From: Verrucomicrobiaceae bacterium
Lineage (GTDB): Bacteria > Verrucomicrobiota > Verrucomicrobiia > Verrucomicrobiales > Verrucomicrobiaceae
Length of the DNA stretch: 64,000 nucleotides
Direction of reading: 5' to 3'
Assembly: GCA_019694165.1 (NCBI GenBank)
Contig: JAIBCL010000017.1
Coordinates: 1 to 64,000, forward strand
Shown: positions 11,415-53,760 of the stretch, one piece after another
How positions within the stretch are numbered: position 1 is the first letter of the stretch
Layout of the letters: each line of letters begins with the position of its first letter
Made by a program: the position numbers and the translations under genes
Notes under the pieces: model-generated
Databases searched by the model: none
What the model saw: only the letters and a program-made list of their open reading frames with translations
What the model was told of the DNA's origin: nothing

Positions 11415-11489
<75 letters not shown>

Positions 11490-11536: not shown

Positions 11537-11559
11537 TTCTACGGTCCTGTTCTACGGTG
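11537..11559. repeat. Two arm-type repeats TTCTACGGTC
   Basis: Copies are at 11537-11546 (exact) and 11550-11559 (last base G), 13 bp apart. They lie between attL and the integrase start. The same motif and the same 13-bp spacing recur at the other end (53574, 53587), the arrangement expected for arm-type sites bound by the integrase N-terminal domain. Confidence 0.7.
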
Positions 11560-11564
11560 CAACC

Positions 11565-27898: not shown

Positions 27899-30800
27899 TC
27901 ACTTTCTTGGGGCTGGTCGTGGCGCAGCCTGGACCTGCTTCGCCATTTTAGCCTGTTGCTCACGCTTCCTGCCACCGTCTTCTGCTTTGACCCGCACCGC
28001 GTGCTTCACGGCCGCGCCGCTGTTGCTCTTCTGCAACGGCTTCACCTCTGTTTTGCCCATTCTGATTTTCCGCTCAGCGGTGGCCGACTGCTTTTCGCCT
28101 TTCACCTTGTCTGCGATTTTCCCGAACGACTTGGCCGCGCCCTGATACACCTCCTTGAAGCGGGCTTGGCGCGTGCCACCGTCGGCCTTCTTGGCTGCCT
28201 GTGGCTTCGCCGTTTTCCCCTGTTTTTTCTCATCACTCAAAGCCAGCATTTTGTCGCGAACCGGCGTCGAAACCTGAATGGCTTTCGGCCAGCTTTTGCC
28301 TTTCTCTTTCGTGCCAGACTTCGGTTTTCCGCCGGGATGTCCTTTTGAACGGCTCTTTCCGTCCGGGCCGGCCAGGCTCCGCTTCAATTCAATGTAGCCG
28401 CGCCAGCTAATCACATTGTCAGTCCCGCGAGTGTGTTCGCGCCGTTGGTCAATGAGCCGCTTCACTGCCGATCTCGTTTCCTCAGAACCGCGCTGCCGCT
28501 GCACCGCCTCGCGCCATTTCGTTGCATTTAGCTCGGTGCTCATGAGGGAGGAAATATCTTTGGTTTTGAATCCCGCCAGCTCTACACCAGACATCCGGGT
28601 TGAGCTGTTGCCCACCGCTTGCTGGAGGCCGCGAATATTGTCCGTGTAGATGCGAATGGTTTCCTTGCCACGACTGCAAGAGACATAAAGCTGCTCCCGC
28701 GAACTGGCAAGAAACGATGCTTCGCTCTGAGCGACAAGAACATCCTTGACGCTCTTGCTCTGCGAGGAATGCGAAGTCTGGCAATAGCCATAGGCGAGAT
28801 GACCGTGATCGGGCTTTAGCACTGCTCCCGTGTTCAAAACAATACGCCCCTTTTTGTCGATCTTCTCGACCGTAAAGACATTACCATTATTGAGCCGCCT
28901 TCCGTTCTCGCTCACTCCATTGCGCGTGATCCGAACACGGTCCCCTTTGGCGAGCGAAAGTTCCTTTTCTTCAAAGACCTGGAACTTGGCGGCATCACGC
29001 ATCGAAAGAACACGCTCTACTCCGCTCGCGCTCTTCACTTTCACCGAGCCGTCATCATCTCGCCCGACTACGCGAAAGAGTTCGCCGCGCTTCACTCCTT
29101 TTGCGTTCTGATGATACTGAACCACCAGCCCCTCTTGGAAATTCTCAGGCCGCCCTCGCTCCGCCTCCTGCCATTGCAAATTGTGGAATTGAAGAAATGT
29201 CCGCCCTGCCCCCAAACGCTTCGCTTCGCGCAACTCCGCCCGAATCGCACTCGTCACCTTCGCGCTTTCGGCATGAGTCGGAGAAACGACCAACGGGACA
29301 CCGCCGCGCTTTGCGAGCGCCACGAAGTCCCGAGCGAGTTCACGATAACGCTCCGCGTCATCTTCAATCTCCACCAGCGCCCCGAGCTTCTCCAAGCGCC
29401 GGAAGCCTGTGCGCAAATCGCCTTTGCTCAAACTGGCGATTGCCGCCTTGTAATCCTCAACTTGCTGTCTCCGAATTTCCGTGACTTCCGCCACTCTGAG
29501 TCCGGCATGTTGCTGGAGCAGCCGGAAGGCATCTCCACGAGCAACCGGTGCATGTTGGGCCGTGTCTCCTGTCAGTATGACGCGAGTATTCGGCCCCGCT
29601 ATCTGCATGATGCGCCACATGTCGCGCACTCCAAGAAGTCCGGCCTCGTCAATCCAGATGACCTGCCCCTGAACCTGCTTTTGCAATTTCGTGTTGTGAA
29701 GGAGATGAGCGACCGTTTCCGCGCCTGCAAACCCCTCCTCCCGCATCGTCTCGCGCGAAGCCGATGCCGAAGGCGCGAATGCGAACACCTTGGTCCCCTT
29801 GGCCTCGATGGCTGCCACCGCTTCCTTCATCAGCGTCGTCTTGCCCACACCAGCCGCGCCACGAACCGCAATCACCTGATCGCGGCTCGTGAGAATATGC
29901 GCGACCGCCAGCTCTTGCTCATCGGAGAGATTACCTCTTACCGATGCCCTTATCCCAAGTGACGGAGCAGAATTGCGCCCGCTGCGGACGAAGTTGATCA
30001 GGGCGACTTCCTCCGCCAGCACGTCCACGGAAGTGCATAAATGCTCGTCACCGATCTTGCGGCCAACCAGTTCCCTCCGCTCAAATTCTGCTTTGATGGC
30101 TTGTGGCGTAACATGCCCTACTCCGTAGCGCATCGCCTCCGCCAGTATGCGCTCACGCTCCACCACCGACTGGCGTTCAAAGAGCTTGGAGATCGCGAAG
30201 TCCACTGCTTCAACCGCCGTGACCTTCACCACTTTCGTCTGCCCCTTGTCGTAGCAGACTTTGGAAATGCTCACCTTTTCATCATCGGTAAGCCTCACAC
30301 TCCAAGCCGCCATCAGATCAGGAAAAGTGAGGCCATGCCTTTTGCCCTCACGAGTGAGCGCACCCAGCGTCTCTTTTTCTTTTGCATCGATGATGCCCTT
30401 CTCAGCCGCCAGCCGCTCAATTTGAGCCGTGCGCCGTGAAAACTTCGCAATCACACTGGCCGGCATTCCTTTCAGTTCCCACCCGTTCTTCGTGCGCTCG
30501 ATATGATAGCCCTGCGCTGAAAGCGCCGATGTCAGTCGCGCATGAAAAGCCGCCTCGCTGTATGGCGCATTGCGTTTGATGTCCCTGAACTTCGCTGCCT
30601 TCCATTTGCCTTCCGTTTCATCAAATGTCGCGTTAAAGGCGAAGCAGTGAACGTGCAAATGGGGATCGGGAATGCCCCCGACCGGACGGGCAGTGAAGTG
30701 GACGAACTCCGCCCAGGCCAGATTTCCCGTCACCCTGTCGCTCGATTGACCTCGCGTCCTGACACGGGTTGCCGTCCCCTCCTCCAGCTCCGCCATCGTG

Positions 30801-31144
30801 TCTTGAACAGCCTGTCGGAATGCCCTCAAGACACCTTCGTCTTGAGTCATGGCATAGAGAACCGACAGGCTCTTGGGCGCATGAAAATTGAGATCGTATC
30901 CGACGATGCGTCCCGATTTCGTGTTCGGCGTCAACCGCCCTCCTCCAACTGGATGACGGTTCTCCACCAGTGCCCCAAAAGCTTCCGGTGTGACGTTTCC
31001 GGTAAGCCCCAGTTGCACCGCCGCCTTCCCATTCCACTTGCCCACCACCTCCTGCTTCTCCGTGTAGTAGTCCTCACGCTTCAAGCCCTCCGCGTAGTAT
31101 TGGCGGGCTGCCGCAGCGCTTTTGTGTGAAATCACTCGAAGCAT
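27899..31144 (-). CDS. MobF-family conjugative relaxase-helicase (TrwC/TraI-like)
   Basis: The 1081-aa protein has an N-terminal HUH relaxase domain: paired tyrosines Y16/Y17 and Y26/Y27 for nicking, D85 in YDLNFHAPKS, and the metal-binding triad H162/H164/H166 in DPHLHVHCF. A RecD2-like helicase follows, with Walker A GAAGVGKTT (429-437), Walker B IWIDEAG, and LTGDTAQHAPVARGD. A basic, low-complexity C-terminus (about 940-1081) ends the protein. It nicks at oriT, stays covalently bound and unwinds the transferred strand. The domain set and length match TrwC-type proteins. It heads an apparent operon with the 136-aa and propeller genes. Confidence 0.95.
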   Translation of the reverse strand: MLRVISHKSAAAARQYYAEGLKREDYYTEKQEVVGKWNGKAAVQLGLTGNVTPEAFGALVENRHPVGGGRLTPNTKSGRIVGYDLNFHAPKSLSVLYAMTQDEGVLRAFRQAVQDTMAELEEGTATRVRTRGQSSDRVTGNLAWAEFVHFTARPVGGIPDPHLHVHCFAFNATFDETEGKWKAAKFRDIKRNAPYSEAAFHARLTSALSAQGYHIERTKNGWELKGMPASVIAKFSRRTAQIERLAAEKGIIDAKEKETLGALTREGKRHGLTFPDLMAAWSVRLTDDEKVSISKVCYDKGQTKVVKVTAVEAVDFAISKLFERQSVVERERILAEAMRYGVGHVTPQAIKAEFERRELVGRKIGDEHLCTSVDVLAEEVALINFVRSGRNSAPSLGIRASVRGNLSDEQELAVAHILTSRDQVIAVRGAAGVGKTTLMKEAVAAIEAKGTKVFAFAPSASASRETMREEGFAGAETVAHLLHNTKLQKQVQGQVIWIDEAGLLGVRDMWRIMQIAGPNTRVILTGDTAQHAPVARGDAFRLLQQHAGLRVAEVTEIRRQQVEDYKAAIASLSKGDLRTGFRRLEKLGALVEIEDDAERYRELARDFVALAKRGGVPLVVSPTHAESAKVTSAIRAELREAKRLGAGRTFLQFHNLQWQEAERGRPENFQEGLVVQYHQNAKGVKRGELFRVVGRDDDGSVKVKSASGVERVLSMRDAAKFQVFEEKELSLAKGDRVRITRNGVSENGRRLNNGNVFTVEKIDKKGRIVLNTGAVLKPDHGHLAYGYCQTSHSSQSKSVKDVLVAQSEASFLASSREQLYVSCSRGKETIRIYTDNIRGLQQAVGNSSTRMSGVELAGFKTKDISSLMSTELNATKWREAVQRQRGSEETRSAVKRLIDQRREHTRGTDNVISWRGYIELKRSLAGPDGKSRSKGHPGGKPKSGTKEKGKSWPKAIQVSTPVRDKMLALSDEKKQGKTAKPQAAKKADGGTRQARFKEVYQGAAKSFGKIADKVKGEKQSATAERKIRMGKTEVKPLQKSNSGAAVKHAVRVKAEDGGRKREQQAKMAKQVQAAPRPAPRK

Positions 31145-31397: not shown

Positions 31398-32534
31398 GTG
31401 ATTTACCTCGACCACAACGCCACCACGCCGGTGCTTCCCGAAGTCAAGGAAGCCATGCTCCCGTTCTTTGGCGACGAGTGGGGCAATCCGTCGAGCAGCT
31501 ACCGGTTTGGCTCGCACTTGAAGTCGAAAATTGAAGAGGCGCGGGAACAAGTGGCGGATCTGATTGGGGGCAAGACACCGCGCGAAATCATTTTCACGAG
31601 TGGCGGCACGGAGAGCAACAACACCGCGATTCATTCGGCCATCATGTCGAATCCGGAAAAGAAGCACATCATCACCTCGCAGGTGGAGCATTCGTCTGTG
31701 CTCACCTATTGTCGATTTCTGGAGAGGCATCACGGATATCGCGTGACGTATTTGCCGGTGGATCGCGAGGGGCTCCTGTCGATTGCGGATTTGGAGAGCG
31801 CTTTCACCGGCGACACCGCCGTCGTTTCCCTGATGTGGGCGAATAACGAAACAGGAGTCCTTTTCCCCGTCGAGCAGATCGCCCAGCTCTGCCGCAATCG
31901 CGGAGTGCACTATCATTGCGATGCCGTGCAGGCAGCAGGCAAGCTGCCCATCGACGTGCGCGCGATTCCCTTCGATTACCTATCAATCACCGGCCACAAG
32001 ATCGGCGCACCAAAAGGCATTGGCGCCCTCTATGTTCAGAAGAAGACCCCGTTCGTTCCCTTTATGCATGGCGGGCATCAGGAGCGTGCGCGGCGTGGAG
32101 GCACCGAGAATGTTTCGCACATCGTCGGCCTTGGCACCGCTGCTGCCATTGCAAAACAGAAACTGCCCGCCTACGACAGCACCGTCCGCCCGATGCGCGA
32201 TGCTCTGGAGCACGGCATCCTCTCCAACACGCCCAATACTGAACTCAACGGCCACGCCACGCAGCGCCTTGCCAACACCACGAATATCACTTTTCACGGC
32301 ATTGAGTCCGAGGCGCTGCTCCTTCTCCTAGATCAGGCCGGCATATGCGCCAGCAGCGGCTCCGCCTGTCTCGCCGACTCTCCCGATCCGTCCCATGTAG
32401 TTGCTGCTATGAAAGAAGGAAATGCTGCCCGGCAGTGCATTCGTCTTTCGGTGGGAATCGAAGATCGTCCGTTCGATATGACAAAGGTTTCAATGGATAC
32501 ACTGCGCTTGACTTCGTCGCTTGCGCCCTATTAA
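31398..32534 (+). CDS. dndA: Cysteine desulfurase DndA-like (phosphorothioation sulfur donor)
   Basis: The 378-aa PLP enzyme of the NifS/IscS family begins IYLDHNATTPV. It has H98 in QVEHSSV, the PLP lysine K201 in SITGHKIGAPKG, and the persulfide cysteine C324 in SSGSACLADS. It takes sulfur from L-cysteine and passes it as persulfide to the DndC-type protein. It starts with GTG and has no visible Shine-Dalgarno site. It converges on the Dnd operon, ending 13 bases from the methyltransferase-like gene, which is why I call it DndA and not a housekeeping IscS; no iscU or other cluster-assembly genes are near. The family alone cannot distinguish DndA from IscS. Confidence 0.85.
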   Translation: MIYLDHNATTPVLPEVKEAMLPFFGDEWGNPSSSYRFGSHLKSKIEEAREQVADLIGGKTPREIIFTSGGTESNNTAIHSAIMSNPEKKHIITSQVEHSSVLTYCRFLERHHGYRVTYLPVDREGLLSIADLESAFTGDTAVVSLMWANNETGVLFPVEQIAQLCRNRGVHYHCDAVQAAGKLPIDVRAIPFDYLSITGHKIGAPKGIGALYVQKKTPFVPFMHGGHQERARRGGTENVSHIVGLGTAAAIAKQKLPAYDSTVRPMRDALEHGILSNTPNTELNGHATQRLANTTNITFHGIESEALLLLLDQAGICASSGSACLADSPDPSHVVAAMKEGNAARQCIRLSVGIEDRPFDMTKVSMDTLRLTSSLAPY

Positions 32535-32547
32535 GGGTCGCATCTTG

Positions 32548-33546
32548 CTACGCAAAAACGATCTCGGAGTAGTTTGGAAAATAGCGATACACTTCGGCGT
32601 AGCGCTTAACATCCGCATCAGGTATGCCTTCTCTCTTGAGTTGTGTGGGATCGTCACTCGGGAGAAAGGAATTTAGTTGGTGCATTTCGCGGGGAGTCAG
32701 GCATGGCACCTTGATCGGAAAGGGACGATCATCCTGTCGATAGAAAGGAAGTTCACCAAAACGACAAGCTTCGAACATTGCCAACTCCTGTTTAGCGACC
32801 AGCACCCCACCAAGAGTCAGCATCTGAGCGCCATCCTGATATACGAAGTGCAACACCTGAACAAAGGCAAGCTGTTCTGCGTCGGGCAAACTGCCGTTTC
32901 TAACTGCTAGTTTTGCATTGATCTCCCCTAGTAGGACTCTACGCAGCACTTGGGGCGTGCCCTTCATGTCCAACATCGTACCCGTGACATCTGTCGGTAT
33001 CTTCTCTGGGAGGTTTTCCTGAAGTTTTGAAAGTCGGTAATCTGCCAAACGAAATGGTGCGCCTTGCTTCGCTTCCGTGATTTTCCTCGCTTCTTCAGTC
33101 GGCTCCGCAACTGGGTGAGCATTTACCGAAAACACAATCATCGTTCCGGATGTTGCTTTTGAGGCTAGAGTTGCGGCATCCGCCAGAACATCAGTGTCGA
33201 GTGTCCCGTCATAATCCAACCACACGACCCGACGTTTATTCCAGTTCAAAGTTGGCAGCACCACCCCTGATTCTCGAAAATCCATCGAAATGCATCCATA
33301 TGGCAAATTCATCTCGAATCGCTTGGCGTTGTCTTCATCACGCTCGATGCTCAGCAAGTCGTTTATTCCAAGGTTTCGGTGAATCAATTGGAAGTCGCTA
33401 AAGTAAATGGATCCAAAGCCTATATACCCATATGAATCGACTGGTTGAAATGGATAGAGGCGTCCAAAAGTCTCACAAAGCATCCGTCTCTCGATCGCTT
33501 TGGCTGGCCTTAATGCGTAGTTTATCCGTTCGTAGCTACGTGTCAT
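32548..33546 (-). CDS. Rossmann-fold methyltransferase-like protein of the Dnd cluster
   Basis: From the ATG at 33546 the protein is 332 aa; a frame from 33639 would overlap the upstream gene by 74 bases. YIGFGSIYFSDFQLIHRNLG resembles a SAM-binding glycine loop, followed by an acidic strand end in LLSIERDEDN and VVWLDYDGTLD, which looks like motif IV. This fits class I methyltransferases often annotated as putative O-methyltransferase or three-Cys-motif-partner-like. No DNA-methylase NPPY or DPPY motif is present, so base methylation is unlikely. It is last in the operon, 19 bases after the MORC-type ATPase gene. Substrate unknown. Confidence 0.65.
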   Translation of the reverse strand: MTRSYERINYALRPAKAIERRMLCETFGRLYPFQPVDSYGYIGFGSIYFSDFQLIHRNLGINDLLSIERDEDNAKRFEMNLPYGCISMDFRESGVVLPTLNWNKRRVVWLDYDGTLDTDVLADAATLASKATSGTMIVFSVNAHPVAEPTEEARKITEAKQGAPFRLADYRLSKLQENLPEKIPTDVTGTMLDMKGTPQVLRRVLLGEINAKLAVRNGSLPDAEQLAFVQVLHFVYQDGAQMLTLGGVLVAKQELAMFEACRFGELPFYRQDDRPFPIKVPCLTPREMHQLNSFLPSDDPTQLKREGIPDADVKRYAEVYRYFPNYSEIVFA

Positions 33547-33565
33547 TTGAGTCAGTTCTCGCGGA

Positions 33566-34933
33566 TCAATCTTCGCCTTTGTTTTCGAGATAATAGTCAA
33601 AAGTCTTCTCGCCGACAGCAGTGAATGTTGTGACTCCAAGGAGCTTTTTTACTTTTTCGACTAACTCAGCACGCTTCGTGTACTGAATCTTTTGGTATCG
33701 CGGCCCTGTTGGCCGTGGGAAGGATGCCGGTGCTACAAAGCCTTGTGCAATGGTGATTCCCTCTGCACGCGTCTCGACAGCATTCTTCACTTCCACTTGT
33801 AGTGGTTCGTCCACACTATCTCCATTCTCTCTGTCACGGCGTTCTCTTTCTAATCGATTTAAGAAATCTAGCACCGGCCGTGTAATCTCGATCATTTCCT
33901 GTTGGACCATCCTGTATATTTTTGAATCAACATCGACACCCGTTTTCGTTGTCGTCCAAGGAAGCAAAGCTGCGTGGTCAGAATCAAAATACGCAAAACC
34001 CCGGAAATACGCGTAATCGGGGTGGTATTGCCGGAGATTGTGAGCCGGACCCCATACTGTTGTAGAAGTCTGATCGGCCCGAAGAACAAGACGACCATTA
34101 CAAAAAATATACCAACCCCCGTCATGCAGGCTACGTTCGGAAACACCTGCGTACAGTTTCACCTTCACGGGAGGCGTCGCTTCACCATCAATTAGCGTTC
34201 GTGCGTACTCTTTTTGCACAAATGCCGGTTTCAGATTTGTGGAAATAAGCAGATTGTGAGGGGTGTGCCGAATTGGGATGCCGTTCACCGAGATCGCGAG
34301 ACCTCGATCCATACTCAATGAATGTGCTGCACTAATTTCATCGGCAAGCCGTGTGCAAAATTGCTCCACTTCAAAATTATCACCCACCCCATCCCGCAAG
34401 CGCTTTATCTCAATTATTGTGCCCTTGGCGTCGGAGGGTACATCAGTTAAATTCTCGGCAACACTATCGAACTCAAAATGCCAATCGCTTGTCCGCTCGT
34501 CGTCAGAGTGTTGCATCCATTTGTCGACGTCCACATTGAGGGTGAAGCTTGAATCTGATGCTTTAGATTCCACGGAGAAATAGCGACCCAGCTTGAAAAA
34601 GCTGCGTTTCATACCAACTCCGAATTGCCCAATTGACCCCGATGTCTCCTGCGCATCCTCTGGTCGGCCAAATCGAAAGGCGTATTCACGGGCGATCTTA
34701 ACCGGAATTCCACCGCAATTGTCAGCGATTCTAAATTCATCCCGAGAGAGTTCGACGCGCACCCAAAGGCCATCGTATTTTCCGCCATCTCGCTCTCGAA
34801 TCGCTCCGTCGATACAATTATCAATCAGATCCAAAATGGCCCGTGTTAAAGGGACATCCCTCGTTAGCATGTGGATGAAAAAAGCCTTCGTTGGCGAGGC
34901 CTTTATCCATTTGGGATTCGATTCTTCCGGCAT
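33566..34933 (-). CDS. MORC/Hsp90-type GHKL ATPase of the Dnd cluster
   Basis: The 455-aa protein carries the Bergerat ATP fold near its N-terminus: N-box AILDLIDNCIDGA (N39), G1 box RIADNCGGI (71-75), and G2 box GQFGVGMKRSFFKLG (102-). A second S5-like domain follows (GWYIFCNGRLVL at about 280), then a charged region (DFLNRLERERRDREN). GHKL ATPases of this kind dimerise on ATP and act as DNA or protein clamps; MORC-type members are known in bacterial conflict systems. It is located 3 bases after the DndE-HerA-like gene, implying cotranscription. A sensing or restriction role is inference. Confidence 0.8.
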   Translation of the reverse strand: MPEESNPKWIKASPTKAFFIHMLTRDVPLTRAILDLIDNCIDGAIRERDGGKYDGLWVRVELSRDEFRIADNCGGIPVKIAREYAFRFGRPEDAQETSGSIGQFGVGMKRSFFKLGRYFSVESKASDSSFTLNVDVDKWMQHSDDERTSDWHFEFDSVAENLTDVPSDAKGTIIEIKRLRDGVGDNFEVEQFCTRLADEISAAHSLSMDRGLAISVNGIPIRHTPHNLLISTNLKPAFVQKEYARTLIDGEATPPVKVKLYAGVSERSLHDGGWYIFCNGRLVLRADQTSTTVWGPAHNLRQYHPDYAYFRGFAYFDSDHAALLPWTTTKTGVDVDSKIYRMVQQEMIEITRPVLDFLNRLERERRDRENGDSVDEPLQVEVKNAVETRAEGITIAQGFVAPASFPRPTGPRYQKIQYTKRAELVEKVKKLLGVTTFTAVGEKTFDYYLENKGED

Positions 34934-34936
34934 AAG

Positions 34937-36415
34937 TCATTCACCTTGGTTTTTCCAAAACTGCCGTGTCGCTCCGGTTGTTGTCTTCCCTCCAAGGCGC
35001 AAAACAGCATCACCCTTTTCCAAGTCCTTCGCTACCATCACTCCAAGAATATCCTTCTGCTCTTTGGGCTTGAGAGTCTGCGGCGAGAAGTGAACACCTG
35101 CGGAAGCGAGTTCGGCAAAATCGACGCCGCTGCTGAGAAACTTGTCGGCATCCTGGCTGGCGAGCCAGAGGGGAAAGCCCCAGGAGCGCCCTTCACGCGC
35201 CAGCTTTTCCAGCAGTTGGGCTTTGCCGTCCTTGGGCAGAATGTTGTGCGCTTCATCAACGAAAAGCACCATCTGTAGAGGCTGGATGCCTTTGCGAACG
35301 GACAGGTTTTTGTTCAGGCGCTCGATGAAGAAGTTCAGCACGAAGGCGACCACAAGCACACGCGAATCGTTGTCGAGTGGTTTGAGATCAATGATGTTAG
35401 AACGACTGATCCACTCCTCGAAGGGGCGAGCCTTGTCAGCGGTGGCGAAGATGTTTCGGCTTACAAGCTGGCGCAGTACCGAGACAGCAACGCCTTCGGC
35501 TCCGTTGGCTTCGAGTTGCTGGAGCAGTGAAGGAAAATCCGGGCGACGCAGGGATTGGTATGCAGTACAAATCTCATCAGCTTGATTCGGTCCCATTTGA
35601 GGGCCGAAAGCACGGACAAGCGAAGCAATGCGGGAAGCGATGTTCGCCGTCTCGGGGCCGCTCTTGCCTGCGTAGAGCGGGTTCACTGGCAACGGTGCGT
35701 CTATCAGGCGGAGATACTGGGCACCCGTGAGGTCAAAGAACTTCTTCCGGTTCTCAGCCTTTTGCTTGTCGTCAGCGGTGGCTTCTTCAAGCTCGCCTTT
35801 GAGGTCGAAGAAAAGGAAAGACACGCCCTGCCGCGCGAGCTGCGCGAGCAGATCGAGAGCGAGCTGGCTTTTGCCAGAGCCGGGTTGGCCGGAGATGATG
35901 AGCAGGCCATTCTTCGTATTCGGGCCGTTCATGCTCCACGGCTCAGCATCGGTGAGGAGCTTGAGCTTTACCTCGCGATCTACCACGGTGAGCATCTTAC
36001 CTTTGCCGCCGGCAGTGGAGACGAGGTTCACAGGCATTTGAAGCTCCGTGTTCTGCGCGCCGCGCAGCAAGTCGGCCACAAACTTGGCCTGATCGCGTCC
36101 GCTGGCTTCCCATAGGTCCGCCATTCTCATGCAGCCGAATTCAAACATGCGTCGGAATTCCCGCTGAAAGGCGGTTTCATCGAGCGTCTTCCCCGCCCGG
36201 AAACGAATGGAGGCACGGAAGACTTCCTCTAGCGGCCCAACTAACGCATCCCAACTGATGTCCTTGCCATTGCCAGCGGGTGGCTTGTAGTCAGCGGGCA
36301 CACCTTCGGCCAACGCGAGACTCACGGCAGCACGCCCCAGCACCGCCTTGGTCTTAGCACCCACGCGGGGATACACTTCTTCGATGAACTTCTCGGCGGA
36401 CAGGCTCGGGGTCAT
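34937..36415 (-). CDS. dndE: DndE domain fused to HerA/VirD4-like ATPase
   Basis: Residues 1-105 resemble DndE, the small DNA-nick-binding subunit of the phosphorothioation complex (KTKAVLGRAAVSLALAEG... GKDISWDALVG), which is normally a protein of about 110-120 aa alone. Here it continues into a P-loop ATPase: Walker A GQPGSGKS (176-183), FLFFDLKGELEEA (about 200), Walker B LFVDEAHNIL (384-393), and a HerA/FtsK-type C-terminus (REGRSWGFPLWLASQDADKF). It is 492 aa in one intact frame, so a true fusion. It lies between dndD and the MORC-type gene in a tight operon. A HerA-like motor might couple sulfur modification to DNA translocation. Confidence 0.78.
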   Translation of the reverse strand: MTPSLSAEKFIEEVYPRVGAKTKAVLGRAAVSLALAEGVPADYKPPAGNGKDISWDALVGPLEEVFRASIRFRAGKTLDETAFQREFRRMFEFGCMRMADLWEASGRDQAKFVADLLRGAQNTELQMPVNLVSTAGGKGKMLTVVDREVKLKLLTDAEPWSMNGPNTKNGLLIISGQPGSGKSQLALDLLAQLARQGVSFLFFDLKGELEEATADDKQKAENRKKFFDLTGAQYLRLIDAPLPVNPLYAGKSGPETANIASRIASLVRAFGPQMGPNQADEICTAYQSLRRPDFPSLLQQLEANGAEGVAVSVLRQLVSRNIFATADKARPFEEWISRSNIIDLKPLDNDSRVLVVAFVLNFFIERLNKNLSVRKGIQPLQMVLFVDEAHNILPKDGKAQLLEKLAREGRSWGFPLWLASQDADKFLSSGVDFAELASAGVHFSPQTLKPKEQKDILGVMVAKDLEKGDAVLRLGGKTTTGATRQFWKNQGE

Positions 36416-36469
36416 GCAGCAGGGAGGGAAAGAGTGGTGTGCGTAGTTGCGGGGAGAGATCGAGACTGC

Positions 36470-38551
36470 TTAAAGCTTCTTTCCGAAGTATTTGGGTTCC
36501 AGGCGCACCTGGTAATCATCCGTTCCTTCGATGCCCTCGGGCACGAGCGTGTAGCCACGTCCGAACTGATCGCGCACCTTCGCAAACAGGGCACCATCAG
36601 GGTCAATTTCGGCATTTGTGGCAAGCACTATGGACTGATGGCCTTCGTGGCTGAGGTAGAGCTTGTCCAGAACGGCGGCGCGCACCTCGCGGTCCAGGCG
36701 ACCAAGCGGCGTATCCACTACGAGAGGCGGCACCGTCTGTGCGATGCGGCGAAGGGCTTCATTAAAGGCGAGCAACCGAACCTGACGCTGACCCGCCGAT
36801 GGGTTCGCATCATCCCAAAGGATTCGTTCGCCATTGCGGCGAATGAGTTCGCACTGCCACAGATCACCGGTGAACTGCATACCTTTGAATTCATGGCTGC
36901 GCTCAGTAATCTCCAGCCAAAGATCGCCGACCAACTGATTGATCTGCTTGCGCATCTGCTCGGAAGCTCTCTTGCGCATCACGCTGGCGGCATCTCGGAA
37001 AGCGTGAGCGCGTGAAGCAAGGCTACGGCCCCTGGACGCTTGATTCTCGATCTCCTGCCAGCGGCTCTCTTCCACTTTCAGACGCGTCATCTCAGTTTCC
37101 GCAAGAGTCTTCTGAACATCAAGTTCGCTCAACTCACGAGCAATGACCTCAAGTTCAACCTTCAGGTCATTGCGCTTGTCGTGAAGTTCCTTCCCGGCCC
37201 CAATGGCGGCGATGTTCTGCGTTTGCTGGCGAATGTCGTAGTCGAGGTCACGGACATCGGCTTGTAGAAGTTCCAAGTTACGGCACGCAGCTTCGAGGCT
37301 TGAGACCTCAGTCGTTGCAGCGGCAAGGGCCTGTCGCACGGCGAAGTTCGTCTCGGGACGATCACACAGAAAAATCTCAATTCCGTCGATGCCTTCCGGT
37401 GGTGGATTGAAAAGGCTGAGCAAGGCGTGATCAAGCCGCCCGGAATAGTAGGCATGAGTAGGAGGAGCGAGTCGATGCTCGGCATCCGGGTTGTCGAAGA
37501 CATCCGCCTTGATGGAAGGAAGCTTGGGCTCAATCGCGGCTTTACGATCCATCCACTCGCGCTTCCGTTCCTCACCTTCGAGTTGCTGCGTCACCGCAAC
37601 ACGGAGCCCGGCAAGCAAAGTTACCGGAATTGGGCTTTCCCAAGAGGTCTCAAGCTTGTTCTCAATTTCACGCTTTGCAGTGGCCACCTCATCCCGACGG
37701 GACTGATCTCGTTCGAGTTTCTTGGGATCAACCGCGCCGATGGTCTTCAGTTGGTCCTCAATGTCGGCCAACTGCGACTCCGCTTCCTGCTTTTTCTCGA
37801 TCTGGCTGGCGCGTTTCTGTTCGTTGGCTTTGAGTTTTCCCGCGAGACTTTGGATTTGCGCCCCGATCTCCGCTAGCTTTTCCGTCGCTTCGCTTCCGCC
37901 GTCAGCGTTGAGTTGCCGGTTCGTATTTTGGAAGATGCTTCTCAGTTCATCTTCGAGGCGCTCGTAAGCCCAAAGGCCCAAGATCCGGCTGATTGCCTGA
38001 ACGATCTCCGTCTCACCGAGGTTCACGTTCTGGCTTTTCTCGGCATCAAAGAAGAAGAAACGCGCGAGATGCCTCGGAAGGAAGGCGTCACGAAGCCGCT
38101 CGATCATCTTGTCGTCTTCTTCGACTTGGCGGTCATTTGAGCGTTCGGCCCACGACCGCCAATCCGGTGCGGAACTCGCTCGGAAACGAATCTCACGGTG
38201 GAGAGTCAGAATTTGCTCCTTGCCGCTGTCGGCATCGCGCTGACGGATTGCGACACGGAGTTTGCATGTGTCGGCCCCTTCGCGGATGGCACGTCGGTTA
38301 AGCGCTTTCGCGAAACTGAAGCGAGTTGCATCTGAGCCGGATTCCACCTTCCGAAGATCGCCAAGACCCGCTTCACCCACCACCGCTAGATAAAGGGCTC
38401 GAAGGACGTGTGTTTTGCCTGCTCCATTTTTTCCTCCAATCAAAACATGAGGAGAACTGTCGGCAGGTGTGACAAAATCGAAATTCGTAGTCTCGTAAAA
38501 CGGACCAAAGTTGGTAATCGACAGCGAGTCTATCGAGATCAGGTTGGCCAT
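36470..38551 (-). CDS. dndD: DndD-like SMC/RecN-type ATPase
   Basis: The 693-aa protein begins with an SMC-type head (MANLISIDSLSITNFGPF), Walker A GGKNGAGKT (39-47), a long central coiled-coil region (about 200-540, for example RASQIEKKQEAESQLADIE), then the ABC signature-like NPSAGQRQ and Walker B PLVVDTPLGRLD near the C-terminus. Size and architecture match DndD, the ATPase of the phosphorothioation complex that may open or sense DNA structure. It starts 3 bases after the dndC stop. A gap of 54 bases separates it from the DndE fusion. Confidence 0.9.
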   Translation of the reverse strand: MANLISIDSLSITNFGPFYETTNFDFVTPADSSPHVLIGGKNGAGKTHVLRALYLAVVGEAGLGDLRKVESGSDATRFSFAKALNRRAIREGADTCKLRVAIRQRDADSGKEQILTLHREIRFRASSAPDWRSWAERSNDRQVEEDDKMIERLRDAFLPRHLARFFFFDAEKSQNVNLGETEIVQAISRILGLWAYERLEDELRSIFQNTNRQLNADGGSEATEKLAEIGAQIQSLAGKLKANEQKRASQIEKKQEAESQLADIEDQLKTIGAVDPKKLERDQSRRDEVATAKREIENKLETSWESPIPVTLLAGLRVAVTQQLEGEERKREWMDRKAAIEPKLPSIKADVFDNPDAEHRLAPPTHAYYSGRLDHALLSLFNPPPEGIDGIEIFLCDRPETNFAVRQALAAATTEVSSLEAACRNLELLQADVRDLDYDIRQQTQNIAAIGAGKELHDKRNDLKVELEVIARELSELDVQKTLAETEMTRLKVEESRWQEIENQASRGRSLASRAHAFRDAASVMRKRASEQMRKQINQLVGDLWLEITERSHEFKGMQFTGDLWQCELIRRNGERILWDDANPSAGQRQVRLLAFNEALRRIAQTVPPLVVDTPLGRLDREVRAAVLDKLYLSHEGHQSIVLATNAEIDPDGALFAKVRDQFGRGYTLVPEGIEGTDDYQVRLEPKYFGKKL

Positions 38552-38554
38552 GGC

Positions 38555-39841
38555 CTATGCGGTAATCGCCATGTTGGGACTATCCTTCATGTCATCTTGG
38601 AGGATCTTGGTGAGTTCCGCCGGCAGACCATGCGCCCGGTTATTTTCGCTGAACTCCTCCACCTTCGAGACAAGCCGTTGCAACGTGTCGGCTGAAAGTC
38701 CCTTCTCGCCAGCGACCTCAGCTTCGAGCTTGCGGAGACGGGCGGTATTGCGCAGGTCGTGCATAGGAAGTCCTGAGTGAGCGTTTACGATTCTAGCGAC
38801 ACCGCGGCCATCGTCCGGCTCACGGGCAGATTTCCAATACTGCTGAATGAGGAGAAGCTCTTCATCGCTTATGAGCTTCATCTTGGCTGAGTCCTGAAGT
38901 TTAAGCAACTCTTTGAGTAGCATTTTCCTCCCCTTCATGAGAATCGGGCCGTTGCCTTCCGAGCCATTCATGCGTCGGGTATCGCGCCACCCATTGTCGG
39001 GATCTTGTACCTTCAGCAGAAGTTCGCGGAATTCGAGCATCGATTCCATGCGCTCATCTCCATTCGCCATCAGGCCTTCGCTGGCCTTGTCTCGCTCAAC
39101 GACAGTGCAGGTCCAGCAACCGAAGCGCGAATTGCCGCAACTCGGGGTGCTTGTGTCAATATGAATGGGACACTCGCCGCCGCCCGCATCCCGGTAGAGC
39201 CTATAGAGTTCCTGATTGCTGCCGCCCCAGGGCGGATTGTTTTGCAGAAGATACGCCCACACTTGTTCAGTACTGAGATGCTCGATGGGGTTCGATACAT
39301 CCACACGCGGTAGATCGGGATGACGCCGAAGTCCGTTTTTGAGCTCGATGCCTGCCATGGTCTGTGAGCGCGTGGCGCTCTCCGCGCGGCGCGCGCCGAG
39401 ATGGAGAATGGCCTGACCAGTGCGACCCAGTGTCCGCTCGACGAACTGATTCACCGGATCAATTTTCATTCGCTGCGTGCACCACCGAAAATGACGATTC
39501 GGCGGCGGATAACCGCGTCCGATGAGATTGACCCAGAAGGATTCGCCAGGAGGCGGTTTGAGCAGATGAACTTCTGTGTTCAATCCGACGCGCTGTGAAA
39601 ACTGGCGCATCTTCTCGAGAGTGCCTTCGATCATGCCAACAATGGCAGGGATTTCAACACGGGTGTCCGTACAGAGGACGGAGATGGGCTTGATGCGCTG
39701 CTCCGATGGTATGGCACTGACGACCTCGAAAATCAGCCCCGCCACCATCGTCGAGTCCTTCCCGCCACTGAAGCCCACAAGCCATGGTCTTGGATCGGAT
39801 TTGTAGAGGTCGAGTATGGAGTCTTTGATTTCTGAAAACAC
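38555..39841 (-). CDS. dndC: DndC-like PP-loop sulfurtransferase
   Basis: The 428-aa protein has the PAPS-reductase/ATP-pyrophosphatase P-loop SGGKDST (25-31), then CTDTRVEIP (57-), RWCTQRMKI with C121, and a cysteine cluster CGNSRFGCWTC (C235, C242, C245), the ligands of the iron-sulfur cluster in DndC. It adenylates the DNA backbone and hands over sulfur received from DndA. It begins with GTG; no earlier ATG is available. It is the first gene of the five-gene operon dndC-dndD-dndE/herA-MORC-methyltransferase. No dndB repressor gene precedes it. Confidence 0.92.
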   Translation of the reverse strand: MFSEIKDSILDLYKSDPRPWLVGFSGGKDSTMVAGLIFEVVSAIPSEQRIKPISVLCTDTRVEIPAIVGMIEGTLEKMRQFSQRVGLNTEVHLLKPPPGESFWVNLIGRGYPPPNRHFRWCTQRMKIDPVNQFVERTLGRTGQAILHLGARRAESATRSQTMAGIELKNGLRRHPDLPRVDVSNPIEHLSTEQVWAYLLQNNPPWGGSNQELYRLYRDAGGGECPIHIDTSTPSCGNSRFGCWTCTVVERDKASEGLMANGDERMESMLEFRELLLKVQDPDNGWRDTRRMNGSEGNGPILMKGRKMLLKELLKLQDSAKMKLISDEELLLIQQYWKSAREPDDGRGVARIVNAHSGLPMHDLRNTARLRKLEAEVAGEKGLSADTLQRLVSKVEEFSENNRAHGLPAELTKILQDDMKDSPNMAITA

Positions 39842-40605: not shown

Positions 40606-41730
40606 ATGCCCACTGAAATCACTTGGAATTGGCAGCAGAAAGACTGGCCGATTTTCCGCTACGACGCGACCAAACTCGCCCCGCTTGAAGCCGAATTCTT
40701 GAGGCAGGCCGGCATGTTCTCGGGCGCGATCAAGCATGTCGAAAACGACGACCAGCAACAGCTCATCGTTGAACTCATCAGCGATGAAGCCTTCCACACA
40801 TCCGAGATCGAGGGAGAGATTCTGAACCGCGACAGCCTCCAGTCTTCCATTCGCCGGAATTTCGGACTCACCACCGACAATCGAAAAATCCCACCAGCAG
40901 AGCATGGCATCGCCCAGATGATGGTGGAACTCTACCGCAAGTTCGACACTCCTCTGTCGCACGAGCTTCTGTTTCACTGGCATGAAATGCTGATGAACGG
41001 CAGACGCGACCTGATCGACATCGGACGCTACCGCACCGACGAACACGCAATGCAGGTTGTCTCCGGGCGGCTCGACTCGCCGAAGGTTCACTTTGAAGCG
41101 CCTCCATCGAAAGTGGTTTCCAAAGAGATGAACCACTTTATTCAATGGTTCAGTCGCACTGCTCCCGATGGCGATTCGCCACTCCCCATTCTGACCCGTG
41201 CCGGCGTCGCTCATCTCTACTTTGTCTGCATCCACCCCTTCGAGGACGGCAACGGTCGAATCGGCCGCGCCATCGCCGAGAAGACCATTTCCGAGGGGTT
41301 GCGACAACCCACTCTGATCTCGCTCTCGCTCACAATCAATCGTGGACGAAAGGCCTACTACGAGATGCTGGAGGGCAGCAACAAGCAGAACGAAATCACC
41401 GAATGGCTGGTTTATTTTGCCAAGACCATTCTCGATGCGCAATCACACGCGCAGCAAATGCTCGATTTCTTGATCGCCAAAACCAAGTTTTACGACCGCA
41501 TTCGAGGCCAGTTGAACGAGCGTCAGGACAAAGTCATCGCACGAATGATGCGCGAGGGACCACAAGGCTTTGAGGGCGGAATGAGCGCTGAGAAATACAT
41601 TCGCCTGACCGGAACCTCCCGTGCCACCGCCACCCGAGATCTCCAGGATTTGGTGGAGAAAAAGGCGCTTGTCCAAACCGGCACCCTCAAGAGCACCCGC
41701 TACCACTTGAATATCGAATTGAAGTCCTAG
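40606..41730 (+). CDS. Fic/DOC-family protein (AMPylase-type)
   Basis: The 374-aa protein has the full Fic motif HPFEDGNGRIGR (210-221), with catalytic His and phosphate-binding loop, so it should transfer AMP or a related group onto a protein. The upstream helix carries TSEIEGE (65-71), matching the [S/T]xxxE[G/N] inhibitory motif that blocks ATP positioning; this is therefore a self-inhibited class II enzyme needing no separate antitoxin. A winged-helix-like region closes the C-terminus (LTGTSRATATRDLQDLVEKK). GGAG lies about 9 bases before the ATG. Target unknown; a defence or stress role is plausible in this island. Confidence 0.93.
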   Translation: MPTEITWNWQQKDWPIFRYDATKLAPLEAEFLRQAGMFSGAIKHVENDDQQQLIVELISDEAFHTSEIEGEILNRDSLQSSIRRNFGLTTDNRKIPPAEHGIAQMMVELYRKFDTPLSHELLFHWHEMLMNGRRDLIDIGRYRTDEHAMQVVSGRLDSPKVHFEAPPSKVVSKEMNHFIQWFSRTAPDGDSPLPILTRAGVAHLYFVCIHPFEDGNGRIGRAIAEKTISEGLRQPTLISLSLTINRGRKAYYEMLEGSNKQNEITEWLVYFAKTILDAQSHAQQMLDFLIAKTKFYDRIRGQLNERQDKVIARMMREGPQGFEGGMSAEKYIRLTGTSRATATRDLQDLVEKKALVQTGTLKSTRYHLNIELKS

Positions 41731-41811: not shown

Positions 41812-42978
41812 CTACAATATCTCTCGAAAGAGTGCGGGATGCGTTTCCATCGCACGATTCAGTTTTTCCATCTCCATCTTGAAGCGCTCAAAATCAGGCT
41901 CGCCGAATGTAACCGTCAGCTTCAAGACACCCGTCGGATCATTGCCATTTTCAAACGGCTTCAAAAACTGCTCTGGAAATTGCTCGAACTCCTTCAGCGG
42001 TACTTCAGCAATTCCTTTCAGCGCGTCCCGTGCCGCCTCCATGATCTCTGGCGGGCGCATGGCGTGAAGCCGTTCTTCGCAATCAATCAGATTGTTGAAA
42101 AGGTCGATCAGTCCGTCCACCGCCGTCTTGATCTCTGAAGCATTTCCCGGTTTACCAAGAGGCCCCATGCTCTCTTGAAGAGAAATTGCGAATTGTTTAC
42201 GCATCGCCTCAGCGATCGCCAAGACATCCGCGAACAAATCTTGGATGTCTTCAATGAATTGCTTTCCACGCATCCGCTCGCCGCGAATATGCACGAAGCC
42301 ACCCGCCAATCTGTCATATCTCAACCTCACACTTTTCAGCTTCGTCCTGACAAGCTCTGCTATCAGGAAAAACTCCCAGTATTTGGGTTTCTCTCTTGCG
42401 ATTCGTTCTGCTTCCCTGCTCTCGCTGCCAAACTCCGCAAGAGGATCAAGTGTTCCCGCACTTGATCGATCTAGGAGATCGCGAAGCAGGTTCGATAGTT
42501 GAACACTCAACACGGTCTTGATTTCATCTGTTCTATCAAACTCGAAAATCCACCTTCCTTCGCCTCGCAGCCTCTCGACAAATTCAAACACCTCCGGCCC
42601 ATCAACATCCCGCGTAAACTGCCAGTTGGCACTATTCTTCCAGTGGGGAAGCAGAGTCATGACCGACTTCCGCACAAAAACAAAAACTGGTAGCCCTGCT
42701 GCTACCGCTTCCTCAAATTCCAGGTTCACAATCGGCTTACCCGAATGCACATCAAGCGTTCCTCTGCTGCCTCCGACTATTAGCACCAGAACATCGGTTT
42801 TCTCTTTCACGTTTCGCCTGCAATTTGCGATGGCTGACTCGGAAGGGTTTACCGGAAACGATGCGTATTCACTCAGAACTGGTTCGTGTCCCAGAGAAAG
42901 AATCAGTTCTCGTAGGTTTTCGCGCACCGGTCCGAGATCATAGCATGTGGAACTGACAAAAATTCGAGTTCTGTTCAT
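41812..42978 (-). CDS. DUF4062 (TIR-like) domain protein
   Basis: The 388-aa protein opens RIFVSSTCYDLGPVRENL, the hallmark of DUF4062, followed by DVLVLIVGGSRG and SGKPIVNLEFEEAVAAGLPVFVFVRK, the strands of this TIR-like/deoxyribosyltransferase-related fold (residues 1-110). The remainder is helical, without a recognised catalytic domain. DUF4062 proteins are frequent in bacterial conflict and NLR-like systems, so an effector or sensor role is reasonable but inferred. It converges on the Fic gene. Confidence 0.85.
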   Translation of the reverse strand: MNRTRIFVSSTCYDLGPVRENLRELILSLGHEPVLSEYASFPVNPSESAIANCRRNVKEKTDVLVLIVGGSRGTLDVHSGKPIVNLEFEEAVAAGLPVFVFVRKSVMTLLPHWKNSANWQFTRDVDGPEVFEFVERLRGEGRWIFEFDRTDEIKTVLSVQLSNLLRDLLDRSSAGTLDPLAEFGSESREAERIAREKPKYWEFFLIAELVRTKLKSVRLRYDRLAGGFVHIRGERMRGKQFIEDIQDLFADVLAIAEAMRKQFAISLQESMGPLGKPGNASEIKTAVDGLIDLFNNLIDCEERLHAMRPPEIMEAARDALKGIAEVPLKEFEQFPEQFLKPFENGNDPTGVLKLTVTFGEPDFERFKMEMEKLNRAMETHPALFREIL

Positions 42979-43383
42979 TCACAGTTTAGATTGCCTTGCA
43001 GATCAGTTTCCCGGTTTCCAGGCTTTCACAAGGGAAAAGCCTTTCCCTCGCCGCGACGATGTGGGCGGCTACCCATTCCAACGGGAGGTGTCCCGTAACG
43101 CCCTCGACTGCGCTCCTCGCCATCTCTTGCTTGTAGGGTTCTGCCTGCCTGATTGTTCAGTCCCGTTCACTGTCCCGCATCAGATCGTGATTTTGCGACG
43201 CTCCTAGTTTTAACCCCACTCTGCGGAGATGGCTCGGTTATGGCGGAAGCCGTCTGCCCGTCAACCCCCGGCCCGCTCCATTCGCTAGCGCTCCCGTGTT
43301 GGGGGCATGACTGACAGCCTCATGGCCTCCGCCTTTGCACCGTCGCCCCGCAGTGGGGTGTAAACACAAACTAGGAGAAAACT
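42979..43383. promoter_or_regulatory. Intergenic region with repeat fragment and shared leader
   Basis: These 405 bases have no gene. 43027-43102 is a diverged copy of the start of the 470-bp repeat (shared AAGCCTTTCCCTCGCCGC and CGGGAGGTGTCCCGTAACGC). 43267-43311 is the second copy of the leader found at 40086-40127. CTAGGAG precedes the downstream start. Confidence 0.65.
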
Positions 43384-43790: not shown

Positions 43791-43814
43791 CACTCCTCTT
43801 TTATTGAAAGCACC

Positions 43815-44285
43815 ACTTCGTCTGTGAGGGGAAAAGCCTTTCCCTCGCCGCTACTCTCGTGCGCGGCTACCCTTTCTAACGGGAGGTGTCCCGTAACGCC
43901 CTCAGGGCTAGCTCCGCACCTCCGCCACGAGCAAGCCCGCCATCCACCATCACCGCTCTTCGGGCAAGCCCTTCGCGCCGCTGCCGGACGGCCAACTTGT
44001 TCCCCCACCTCCCTCTTGAACAGAACCGGCTTGATCAGAGACGGCGCCCACTTTGCCCGCCTTCGCCCTCCCTTCTCGTCGCCCGTCCCCTGAACAATCC
44101 GGTTCCATCCGCCCCTGATTCCCTGCCGCGTGGCGCAGTCTGTCTCGCCTTCAGCAAGCCTTGAAGACTCAAGGCGCGCCGATTCAGACAACGCCACTCC
44201 CCGCCACAATACCGGACACAGAAGCAGGCTGTTCGATTCGCTGCCGCCTGACCGTCCGCTCAATTCGAGCCAGCCTCTTCCGTGT
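43815..44285. repeat. 470-bp direct repeat, left copy
   Basis: It is practically identical to 46410-46879 apart from a single-base indel and one substitution in the first 20 bases. It contains palindromic pieces near the start (GGGAAAAGCCTTTCCC; ACGGGAGGTGTCCCGT). Open frames on both strands are identical between copies, but their composition is not protein-like. Together with its partner it brackets a 2.1-kb cassette with a toxin-antitoxin pair and two membrane-protein genes. Confidence 0.93.
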
Positions 44286-46324: not shown

Positions 46325-46409
46325 AGGTGGTAAAAAGTATGTGGCTATTTATGTCGCTGCAACTGTCTAATTTTCTCCGAACGAAGGCGAGCTGCCCAGC
46401 CAAAACGCT

Positions 46410-46879
46410 ACTTCGTCTGTGAGGGAAACGCCTTTCCCTCGCCGCTACTCTCGTGCGCGGCTACCCTTTCTAACGGGAGGTGTCCCGTAACGCCCTCAGG
46501 GCTAGCTCCGCACCTCCGCCACGAGCAAGCCCGCCATCCACCATCACCGCTCTTCGGGCAAGCCCTTCGCGCCGCTGCCGGACGGCCAACTTGTTCCCCC
46601 ACCTCCCTCTTGAACAGAACCGGCTTGATCAGAGACGGCGCCCACTTTGCCCGCCTTCGCCCTCCCTTCTCGTCGCCCGTCCCCTGAACAATCCGGTTCC
46701 ATCCGCCCCTGATTCCCTGCCGCGTGGCGCAGTCTGTCTCGCCTTCAGCAAGCCTTGAAGACTCAAGGCGCGCCGATTCAGACAACGCCACTCCCCGCCA
46801 CAATACCGGACACAGAAGCAGGCTGTTCGATTCGCTGCCGCCTGACCGTCCGCTCAATTCGAGCCAGCCTCTTCCGTGT
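46410..46879. repeat. 470-bp direct repeat, right copy
   Basis: See 43815-44285. The downstream flank here (GATTCTACCGCC) is unrelated to the antitoxin operator that follows the left copy. The next 231 bases (46880-47110) hold no gene I can support. Confidence 0.93.
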
Positions 46880-47485: not shown

Positions 47486-47573
47486 CATTCAGACATCTGC
47501 CCTGTGCAGTGCACAGGGGGTGGTTTTCGCTCGCCCCAAAGCCGCTCTCCAGCTAGCCTCCGGCCAGAATTCC

Positions 47574-52367: not shown

Positions 52368-52413
52368 GCTAGCAAGCTTGCTTGCAAGCAGGCCAGCTTG
52401 CTCTGTTGCAAGT
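52368..52413. repeat. GCAAGC palindrome cluster upstream of parA
   Basis: GCTAGCAAGCTTGCTTGCAA (52368-52387) includes the perfect palindrome GCAAGCTTGC, followed by CAGCTTGC and GTTGCAAG. It shares words with 47350-47485. Its position about 100-145 bases before parA suits a parS/operator site. Confidence 0.5.
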
Positions 52414-52513
52414 GTGCCACTGCTTCAAAGAATTCTCGCGCAACACAAAGCACAAAACGTCATTTCGTACCACACAGCAGCGTGAGTCTTTATGCTTCGC
52501 CCGAGGAAGCAAA

Positions 52514-53137
52514 ATGATCTACGGGCTGACGAATTCCAAAGGCGGTGTCGGAAAAACCACAATCGCGGTGCATCTAGCCGCATGGCTGGCGAAGAAGGGG
52601 CGCAAAGTCGTCTTCGTGGATGCCGACCCGCAATCCTCCGCTTCACAGTGGATCAAAGAACTCTCAATAGGTATCAAGCTCGAACAAGTTCCCGAATCGG
52701 GGGAGATAATTCGTCGAGTCGCCAAACTCTCGAATGACGCGAATGACATCGTCATTGACGGACCCGCAGGGCTTTCAGCCACCACCCGCGCCATCATGCT
52801 GCAAGCTGACCGCGTGTTCTTTCCATGTGGGCCGTCTATTCTCGACCTCCGAGCCGCATCGAAGGCGGTGTTGCTCTTGCGCGAAGCGCAAAAGATCAGG
52901 GCAGGCAAGCCGACCGGCGCATTGATTCCAAACAAGCTCCAGAAGCGAGGACGCCTGAGCCGTGAGATGATGGATGCCGCAAAGAAATTGGGCATTGATG
53001 TTCTGGCCGGTCTTTCACTTCGCCAGAGCTTCGCAGACGTAGCAGGGCAGGCCAAAGTTGTGTGGCAAATGGGAACAACGTCACTTCTCGCCTCCCACGA
53101 AATGCAACAACTGATGAAGGAGATCACAGGTGACTAA
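52514..53137 (+). CDS. parA: ParA-family partition ATPase
   Basis: The start at 52514 (MIYGLTNSKGG, preceded by GAGGA at 6 bases) gives 207 aa with the deviant Walker A KGGVGKTT right at the N-terminus, FVDADPQSSASQW as the Walker A' aspartate region, and DIVIDGPAG as Walker B. No N-terminal HTH is present, so this is a type Ib-like ParA without DNA-binding autorepressor domain. It segregates the circular form by nucleoid-bound gradients. The partner gene overlaps by 8 bases. Confidence 0.93.
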   Translation: MIYGLTNSKGGVGKTTIAVHLAAWLAKKGRKVVFVDADPQSSASQWIKELSIGIKLEQVPESGEIIRRVAKLSNDANDIVIDGPAGLSATTRAIMLQADRVFFPCGPSILDLRAASKAVLLLREAQKIRAGKPTGALIPNKLQKRGRLSREMMDAAKKLGIDVLAGLSLRQSFADVAGQAKVVWQMGTTSLLASHEMQQLMKEITGD

Positions 53138-53722: not shown

Positions 53723-53760
53723 ATTACAAATCAGTTGCTCTACCACTGAGCTAACCCGGC
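53723..53760. repeat. attR core: truncated tRNA-Thr 5' half
   Basis: Identical to 11452-11489. It holds only the 5' half of tRNA-Thr, from acceptor strand to anticodon loop, followed on the right by what should be the original upstream DNA of the tRNA gene. The next 289 bases to tRNA-Ser contain no gene I can support. Confidence 0.95.

Follow-up and report, generated by a model that had tools for sequence, protein, structure and literature searches.

The 64,000-nucleotide stretch of DNA analysed here (the window; positions 1 to 64,000 of contig JAIBCL010000017.1, assembly GCA_019694165.1, from a Verrucomicrobiaceae bacterium) contains, between positions 31398 and 39841, a cluster of dnd genes for DNA phosphorothioation, in which a MORC-family GHKL ATPase and a Methyltransf_35 protein (MT35) are encoded between dndEi and dndA. 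These two genes are foreign to the dnd locus: they were acquired separately, as one unit, and occupy a slot whose contents vary. We put at about even the chances that the cluster is a defence locus based on phosphorothioation and modular in its effector half, in which the MORC-MT35 pair would be the read-out or effector half, recruited once from a kind of module linked to DNA methylases. The cluster comprises the following features.

38555-39841, minus strand: dndC, PP-loop sulfurtransferase (TIGR03183, 371.9 bits against a cut-off of 290.4; PADLOC DndC, 6e-122)
36470-38551, minus strand: dndD, SMC-like ABC ATPase (PADLOC DndD, 1.6e-60; TIGR03185, 168 bits, below the cut-off of 245.9; AAA_23)
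34937-36415, minus strand: dndEi, DndE-like domain (amino acids 4-88) fused to a HerA/FtsK ATPase (amino acids ~167-460) (PF08870; PADLOC DndH C-terminus, 1.2e-23)
33566-34933, minus strand: MORC-family GHKL-S5 ATPase (HATPase_c_3, 4.4e-13; motifs; AlphaFold2 (AF2) model)
32548-33546, minus strand: MT35 (Methyltransf_35, PF20553), class I S-adenosylmethionine (SAM)-methyltransferase fold (PF20553, 333 bits, 1.9e-99, cut-off 27)
31398-32534, plus strand: dndA, cysteine desulfurase, convergent with the other genes (PADLOC DndA, 3e-136; TIGR03235, 362.9 bits, below the equivalog cut-off of 480)
32457-34953, no strand: exchangeable cassette interval (MORC and MT35) between dndEi and dndA, delimited by DNA homology to the related locus L134 and by a shift in guanine-plus-cytosine (GC) content

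Among 12 DndC-positive Verrucomicrobiota genomes, the loci are mostly of the canonical dndBCD(E) type, several of them carrying another DndD-like gene, of the CxC/Pbe type. L134 and L135, two of the DndC loci, come from the window's own family and are of the DndEi type. The DndC, DndD and DndEi proteins of L134 are 89%, 84% and 88% identical to those of the window, and its DNA aligns continuously to window positions 34954-39841 (74% identity) and again to 31399-32456 (73.5%). The homology ends at 34954 and restarts at 32456, which defines the edges of the cassette. In place of MORC and MT35, the slot in L134 holds a gene for a 167-amino-acid membrane-protein-like product and one for a DGQHR/DndB-like protein (PF14072), and L135 is organized likewise. 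The GC content of the window cassette is 48.5-48.8% (47-50% at third codon positions, GC3), compared with 55.9-57.6% (GC3 61-69%) for the four core genes. The different gene pair in the relatives, the break in homology and the drop in GC content together identify MORC-MT35 as a unit that was acquired separately. The cassettes of the relatives (L134 2155-3911, L135 13559-15237) also have a GC content below that of their own core.

The original prediction had placed the last two genes of the operon in the restriction position and proposed a different read-out for them. The first part is borne out by the separate, exchangeable slot, but the pair is not an invention of Dnd systems. Since MORC-MT35 is widespread and its usual partner is a DNA methyltransferase, the proposal has to be widened to a modification-flexible read-out that would have been recruited once to Dnd.

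When the MORC protein was used as a query, four other loci were returned. Three of them, L002 (Verrucomicrobia), L003 (Acidobacteria) and L004 (deltaproteobacterial), have the identical order dndC-dndD-dndEi-MORC-MT35 with a convergent dndA, while L005, from a Burkholderiales metagenome-assembled genome, lies at a contig end, starts inside MORC and continues with MT35 and dndA. Identities to the window proteins are 64-68% for DndC, 46-49% for DndD, 49-53% for DndEi, 55-57% for MORC, 50-52% for MT35 and about 67% for DndA. The association of the MORC and methyltransferase-like genes with dndCDE, as originally proposed, therefore goes beyond chance, the same order being kept in L002-L004 at 46-68% identity. 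This survey of four loci started from the window's own MORC and is therefore biased towards Dnd loci. In L004, a nucleotidyltransferase/HepT toxin-antitoxin-like pair (HepT/MNT; 9238-9868) is inserted between MT35 and dndA, and in L002 a partial dndA-like copy adjoins MT35 besides the full dndA (9800-10096 and 11367-12518).

Outside Dnd, PF20553 is present in about 1-2% of the genomes sampled in four phyla. After exclusion of the survey seeds, 11 matches above the cut-off remained; MORC is located directly upstream in all 11, with a DNA methylase nearby, which is of the C5-cytosine class in six and of the N4/N6 class in five. The survey of the pair itself yielded 46 non-redundant non-Dnd MORC-MT35 loci, for which protein families were counted within 4 kb. 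MORC and MT35 are found in all 46, a C5 methylase in 39 and Vsr in nine; N4/N6 methylases also occur, and the few other families each appear in three or four loci. Five of the seven loci with no C5 methylase inside 4 kb have an N4/N6 methylase, and in L006 and L007 the C5 methylase lies beyond the 4-kb radius. No recurring third partner with nuclease function was found in the 46 loci besides Vsr. L006, on an S. meliloti plasmid, is the one exception to strict adjacency, with MORC and MT35 ~3 kb apart. In L007, on a Microvirga plasmid, the pair lies inside a DISARM locus, between an MmeI-like methylase and drmA.

The pair is also carried by viruses. A scan of viral contigs with a MORC profile returned 76 loci, with an adjacent MT35 in 68 that usually overlaps the MORC stop codon by 1-8 nucleotides; a C5 methylase is less than 600 nucleotides away in 66 of these 68. 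The filamentous Pseudomonas phage PfAC20 (L020, 280-3711) has MORC, MT35 and a C5 methylase as cargo. A near-identical C5-methylase module is present in 173 of 5426 complete E. coli genomes, where the NCBI Prokaryotic Genome Annotation Pipeline (PGAP) names its products ‘ATP-binding protein, O-methyltransferase, DNA cytosine methyltransferase’. The sole E. coli copy examined, from E. coli O111 (L114, 10001-13500), lies within lambdoid prophage sequence. In five loci (L103, L105, L110, L112 and L113), MORC homologues stand beside a C5 methylase without MT35 and bear a C-terminal extension of 150-170 amino acids, which neither Pfam nor NCBIfam recognises. This extension is possibly an alternative effector domain. 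By eye, an R-x6-H-like motif raised the suspicion of a HEPN domain, which Pfam and NCBIfam did not confirm, and the extension therefore serves as a hint alone.

Pairwise distances over 36 loci correlate at 0.80 for MORC and MT35, compared with 0.34 for MORC and the C5 methylase and 0.27 for MT35 and the C5 methylase. The unit is MORC-MT35, whose DNA methylase is more readily swapped. Among the 52 MORCs of a maximum-likelihood tree, the five linked to Dnd group in one clade (support 100/99) that is sister to C5-methylase-linked MORCs (99/91), and the partner labels require only three changes on this tree. Such a topology fits a single recruitment of MORC-MT35 to phosphorothioation from base-methylation systems. 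As the root of the tree is not fixed, the direction of recruitment is read from the nesting.

The genes dndC, dndD, dndEi, MORC and MT35 form one tight minus-strand operon with intergenic gaps of 3-54 nucleotides, and dndEi, MORC and MT35 are nearly contiguous (gaps of 3-19 nucleotides). All six open reading frames (ORFs) named in the original prediction, namely dndC, dndD, a DndE fusion, a MORC/GHKL gene, a Rossmann methyltransferase-like gene and the convergent dndA, are located where it had placed them and are supported by profiles. DndC and DndD both qualify as components of a Dnd system, DndD by its PADLOC match, since its NCBIfam score is below the cut-off. DndA is linked to dndCDE by its PADLOC match and by its convergent gene, with an equivalog score below the cut-off. 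The domain layout of the fusion is that of the DndEi subtype, the published DndEi being compared by description. Its DndE domain gives a weak PF08870 match (amino acids 4-88, E=0.0026, 18.5 bits, below the 25-bit cut-off), as do the fusions in L134 and L135, and the top PADLOC match of its HerA/FtsK part is the DndH C-terminus. It is 88% identical to the DndEi of genome G235 and 73% identical to that of G066. Judged by homology, DndA, DndC, DndD and DndEi would mark the host DNA with backbone sulfur.

The AF2 model of the MORC protein has a pLDDT of 90 and superimposes best on MORC3, MORC4 and MORC2 in the PDB (Z-scores of 21-23, about 300 aligned residues, root-mean-square deviation (rmsd) of 4.2-4.7); Hsp90 follows close behind, and then topoisomerases. 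The N-box, G1 and G2 motifs of the GHKL domain are invariant (D35/N39, D71/G75 and G105/G107), with Asp as the N-box general base where Glu is usual, and so is K330, the TTTK lysine of the S5 domain. The S5 motif GhXhhpXXRhl is also present (window GWYIFCNGRLVL; GWYIFCNGRLV, in which G, W, C, N and R do not vary across the alignment). PADLOC returns at most a weak MzaB match. From its family and fold, the protein is predicted to be an ATP-gated GHKL-S5 dimer akin to eukaryotic MORCs. A nuclease hidden in the MORC protein was considered and rejected, its last ~55 residues forming two helices in the model.

MT35 probably starts at the ATG at position 33546, giving the interval 32548-33546, rather than as a 363-amino-acid ORF from the TTG at 33639. 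Its AF2 model (pLDDT 93) has a class I SAM-methyltransferase fold, and the protein belongs to Methyltransf_35. The closest folds, which tie within one Z unit, are Trm1 (Z = 14.8, 219 aligned residues, rmsd = 3.9), an RNA-methyltransferase-like protein, RsmD and TYW2; a search by sequence found no relative in the PDB. Strong conservation extends, among other residues, to a G-x-G loop that follows strand 1, to E68, which comes after strand 2, and to the D111-Y112 pair of strand 4, a set that suits a cofactor-binding enzyme. An assignment as a DNA amino-methyltransferase was rejected, motif IV being LDY[DT] and not [DNS]PP[YFW]. The idea of a hidden nuclease was discarded for MT35 as well, its model showing nothing beyond a class I methyltransferase fold. 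PADLOC contains no model for MT35. The identification of the two proteins as a MORC and a Rossmann-fold methyltransferase, made at first from motifs, is upheld by profile, motif and predicted structure together.

The absence of dndB and of dndF, dndG and dndH, also part of the original prediction, withstood wider searches. DndB has no match anywhere in the genome of origin (96% complete), and DndFGH were not recognised, with profile scans finding none in the operon and DndG lying outside the genome-wide search. The sole genome match for DndH is the dndEi gene itself, through its HerA part. The DptF family has no match above the cut-off in this genome, and its model also rings weakly in every control genome. 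PbeABCD and CxC components (the HKD nuclease-SF2 helicase and the CxC ABC ATPase) are absent among the flanking genes scanned, and the operon proteins contain no domain of the SspE/DndI kind (DUF262/DGQHR with an HNH nuclease). DndEi had no match in viral contigs or plasmids.

How might the pair work? We infer that it restricts DNA, and likewise the manner in which it would do so. Acting as one unit, MORC and MT35 would distinguish marked DNA from unmarked and execute the response. MORC, judging from its family and fold, would load on DNA and close around it in an ATP-dependent manner. Phosphorothioate marks, or the DndCDEi complex on them, may block stable loading on self DNA, and MORC loaded on unmarked DNA would recruit or activate MT35 as the effector. 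In a bolder version, which we hold tentatively and think doubtful as it stands, MORC-MT35 would be a restriction effector that needs no nuclease and is indifferent to the kind of mark: a DNA clamp gated by ATP, coupled to a SAM-methyltransferase-fold protein, would silence unmarked DNA, disable it or trigger shutdown, and would have been fitted to C5-methyl, N4/N6-methyl and DISARM marks, and once to backbone sulfur. On this version, bacteria would possess a counterpart of the eukaryotic MORC-based silencing of foreign elements. However, several points have to be set against an effector role. The roles of MORC and MT35 in the Dnd setting are predictions from their genes. Adjacency to a modification enzyme is no proof of restriction, and the pair could assist modification instead. 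No substrate can be identified for MT35, whose motif IV is unlike that of DNA amino-methyltransferases. The argument for an effector slot leans in part on the MT35-less MORCs with their unclassified C-terminal extension. Moreover, the Dnd association is rare: it comprises five loci, four of them found through the window's own MORC, and although DndC occurs in 12 of 388 Verrucomicrobiota genomes, only one of these 12 combines it with MORC-MT35.

Two main rival explanations are compatible with much of this evidence. The pair might be a modification helper, an Hsp90-like machine and its partner that load, assemble or regulate DndCDEi and the C5 and N4/N6 methylases, with no restriction involved. 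The pair does adjoin a modification enzyme and never a recurring nuclease besides Vsr, its model fold is near Hsp90 as well as MORC, and the pair found instead in this dnd slot includes a DndB-like protein, canonical DndB being a regulator of modification. Yet the coupling between methylase and pair is loose (r = 0.34), which would be odd for a dedicated assembly factor; C5 methylases generally act alone, and compact phage cargo arranged like restriction-modification (R-M) genes resembles defence. We regard this explanation as unlikely. A rather low probability also attaches to a guardian or abortive-infection module, in which MORC would sense that modification is blocked or subverted, or that foreign DNA is present, and switch on a toxic, perhaps RNA-modifying MT35. 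PrrC and RloC, which are associated with R-M systems, are analogues of such a module. The closest folds of MT35 include the tRNA/rRNA methyltransferases Trm1, RsmD and TYW2, although a common methyltransferase fold says little on substrate. A HepT/MNT pair sits between MT35 and dndA in L004. HEPN RNase-paraMORC fusions have been published in R-M loci (PMC3710099), and MT35-less MORCs beside C5 methylases bear the extension described above, but Pfam and NCBIfam do not identify it as HEPN. That the two genes merely landed between dndEi and dndA, with no joint function with Dnd, seems very improbable. In favour of it, the cluster is carried by a mobile element, the base composition of the cassette marks it as foreign, and MORC-MT35 is missing from the nearest Dnd relatives. 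Against it, the gene order has been maintained across several phyla at about 50-57% identity, the Dnd-linked MORCs are one clade, and hardly any sequence separates the two genes from dndEi.

A perfect 38-bp direct repeat occurs at 11452-11489, inside tRNA-Thr(tgt), and at the far end, 53723-53760. An integrase-like ORF (11505-12665) lies beside the tRNA copy, and the interval also contains genes for a MobF relaxase (27899-31144), a coupling-protein-like product (47520-49127) and a ParA-like product (52382-53137). Together, these features outline an integrative mobile element of ~42 kb that carries the dnd cluster. Beside the cluster are a Fic-domain gene (40606-41730) and a DUF4062 gene (41812-42978), which are likely to be further conflict-system genes. 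Two direct repeats of 479 bp (43807-44285 and 46402-46879) share 99% identity, and a related, incomplete third copy is present at 43031-43105; the repeats may represent a small insertion element.

If MORC-MT35 is indeed the effector half, phosphorothioation would have a read-out that uses no recognised nuclease, and one effector pair would have been re-wired between base methylation and backbone sulfur. The function of prokaryotic MORCs, a long-open question, becomes directly testable. As the pair occurs with a C5 methylase in E. coli genomes and in a filamentous Pseudomonas phage, its mechanism can be tested in standard hosts.

The core of the cluster corresponds to a published subtype. A DndE fused to a helicase domain has been termed DndEi (Zheng 2016, as cited in PMC7464106), and HerA fused to DndE constitutes HerA clade 3 (PMC10853773). 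DndEi systems share with the window dndC, dndD, the dndE/HerA fusion and a nearby dndA, and the descriptions of them covered here contain neither MORC nor MT35. The main text of PMC10853773 mentions no MORC or GHKL protein, with an unlabelled instance in its supplementary tables being possible. The possibility raised in the original prediction, that the operon is already a named Dnd subtype, thus applies to the core (PMC7464106, PMC10853773) and not to MORC and MT35 with Dnd, which the literature covered does not describe. The DndEi relatives L134 and L135 differ from the window in their slot, which holds the membrane-protein-like and DGQHR/DndB-like genes. DndFGH, PbeABCD, SspE and DndI are read-out modules partnered with phosphorothioation genes, as MORC-MT35 would be, but each includes a recognised or proposed nuclease (a restriction endonuclease in DndFGH, the HKD-helicase PbeA, HNH in SspE and DndI), whereas none of these domains was found in the genes of the window locus. 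The DISARM locus L007 shares MORC-MT35 and differs by its methylase modification and by drmABCD, which are absent from the window. In the GHKL-Shedu protein VcSduA, a shared GHKL module is proposed to gate a defence effector, which is there a fused DUF4263 nuclease and in the window would be a methyltransferase-fold partner (PMC12137116).

Prokaryotic MORC and paraMORC ATPases in R-M operons were described by Iyer, Abhiman and Aravind in 2008 (PMC2292703). In the available part of that paper, these MORCs, like the window protein, combine GHKL and S5 domains with a MORC-specific motif; they stand beside DNA methylases and Vsr, and in a minority of cases no helicase is present. This part of the text names neither MT35 nor Dnd and does not describe the strict pair or its recruitment to phosphorothioation. 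PF20553 was not found by name in the papers searched, and neither the MORC-MT35 pair nor either gene with Dnd was described in the literature searched, to which supplements, preprints and most subscription papers did not belong. HEPN-paraMORC fusions in R-M loci have been known since 2013 (PMC3710099). Already known, then, are MORCs beside DNA methylases, HEPN-paraMORC fusions and DndEi; new, within the literature covered, are the MORC-MT35 pair and its linkage to Dnd.

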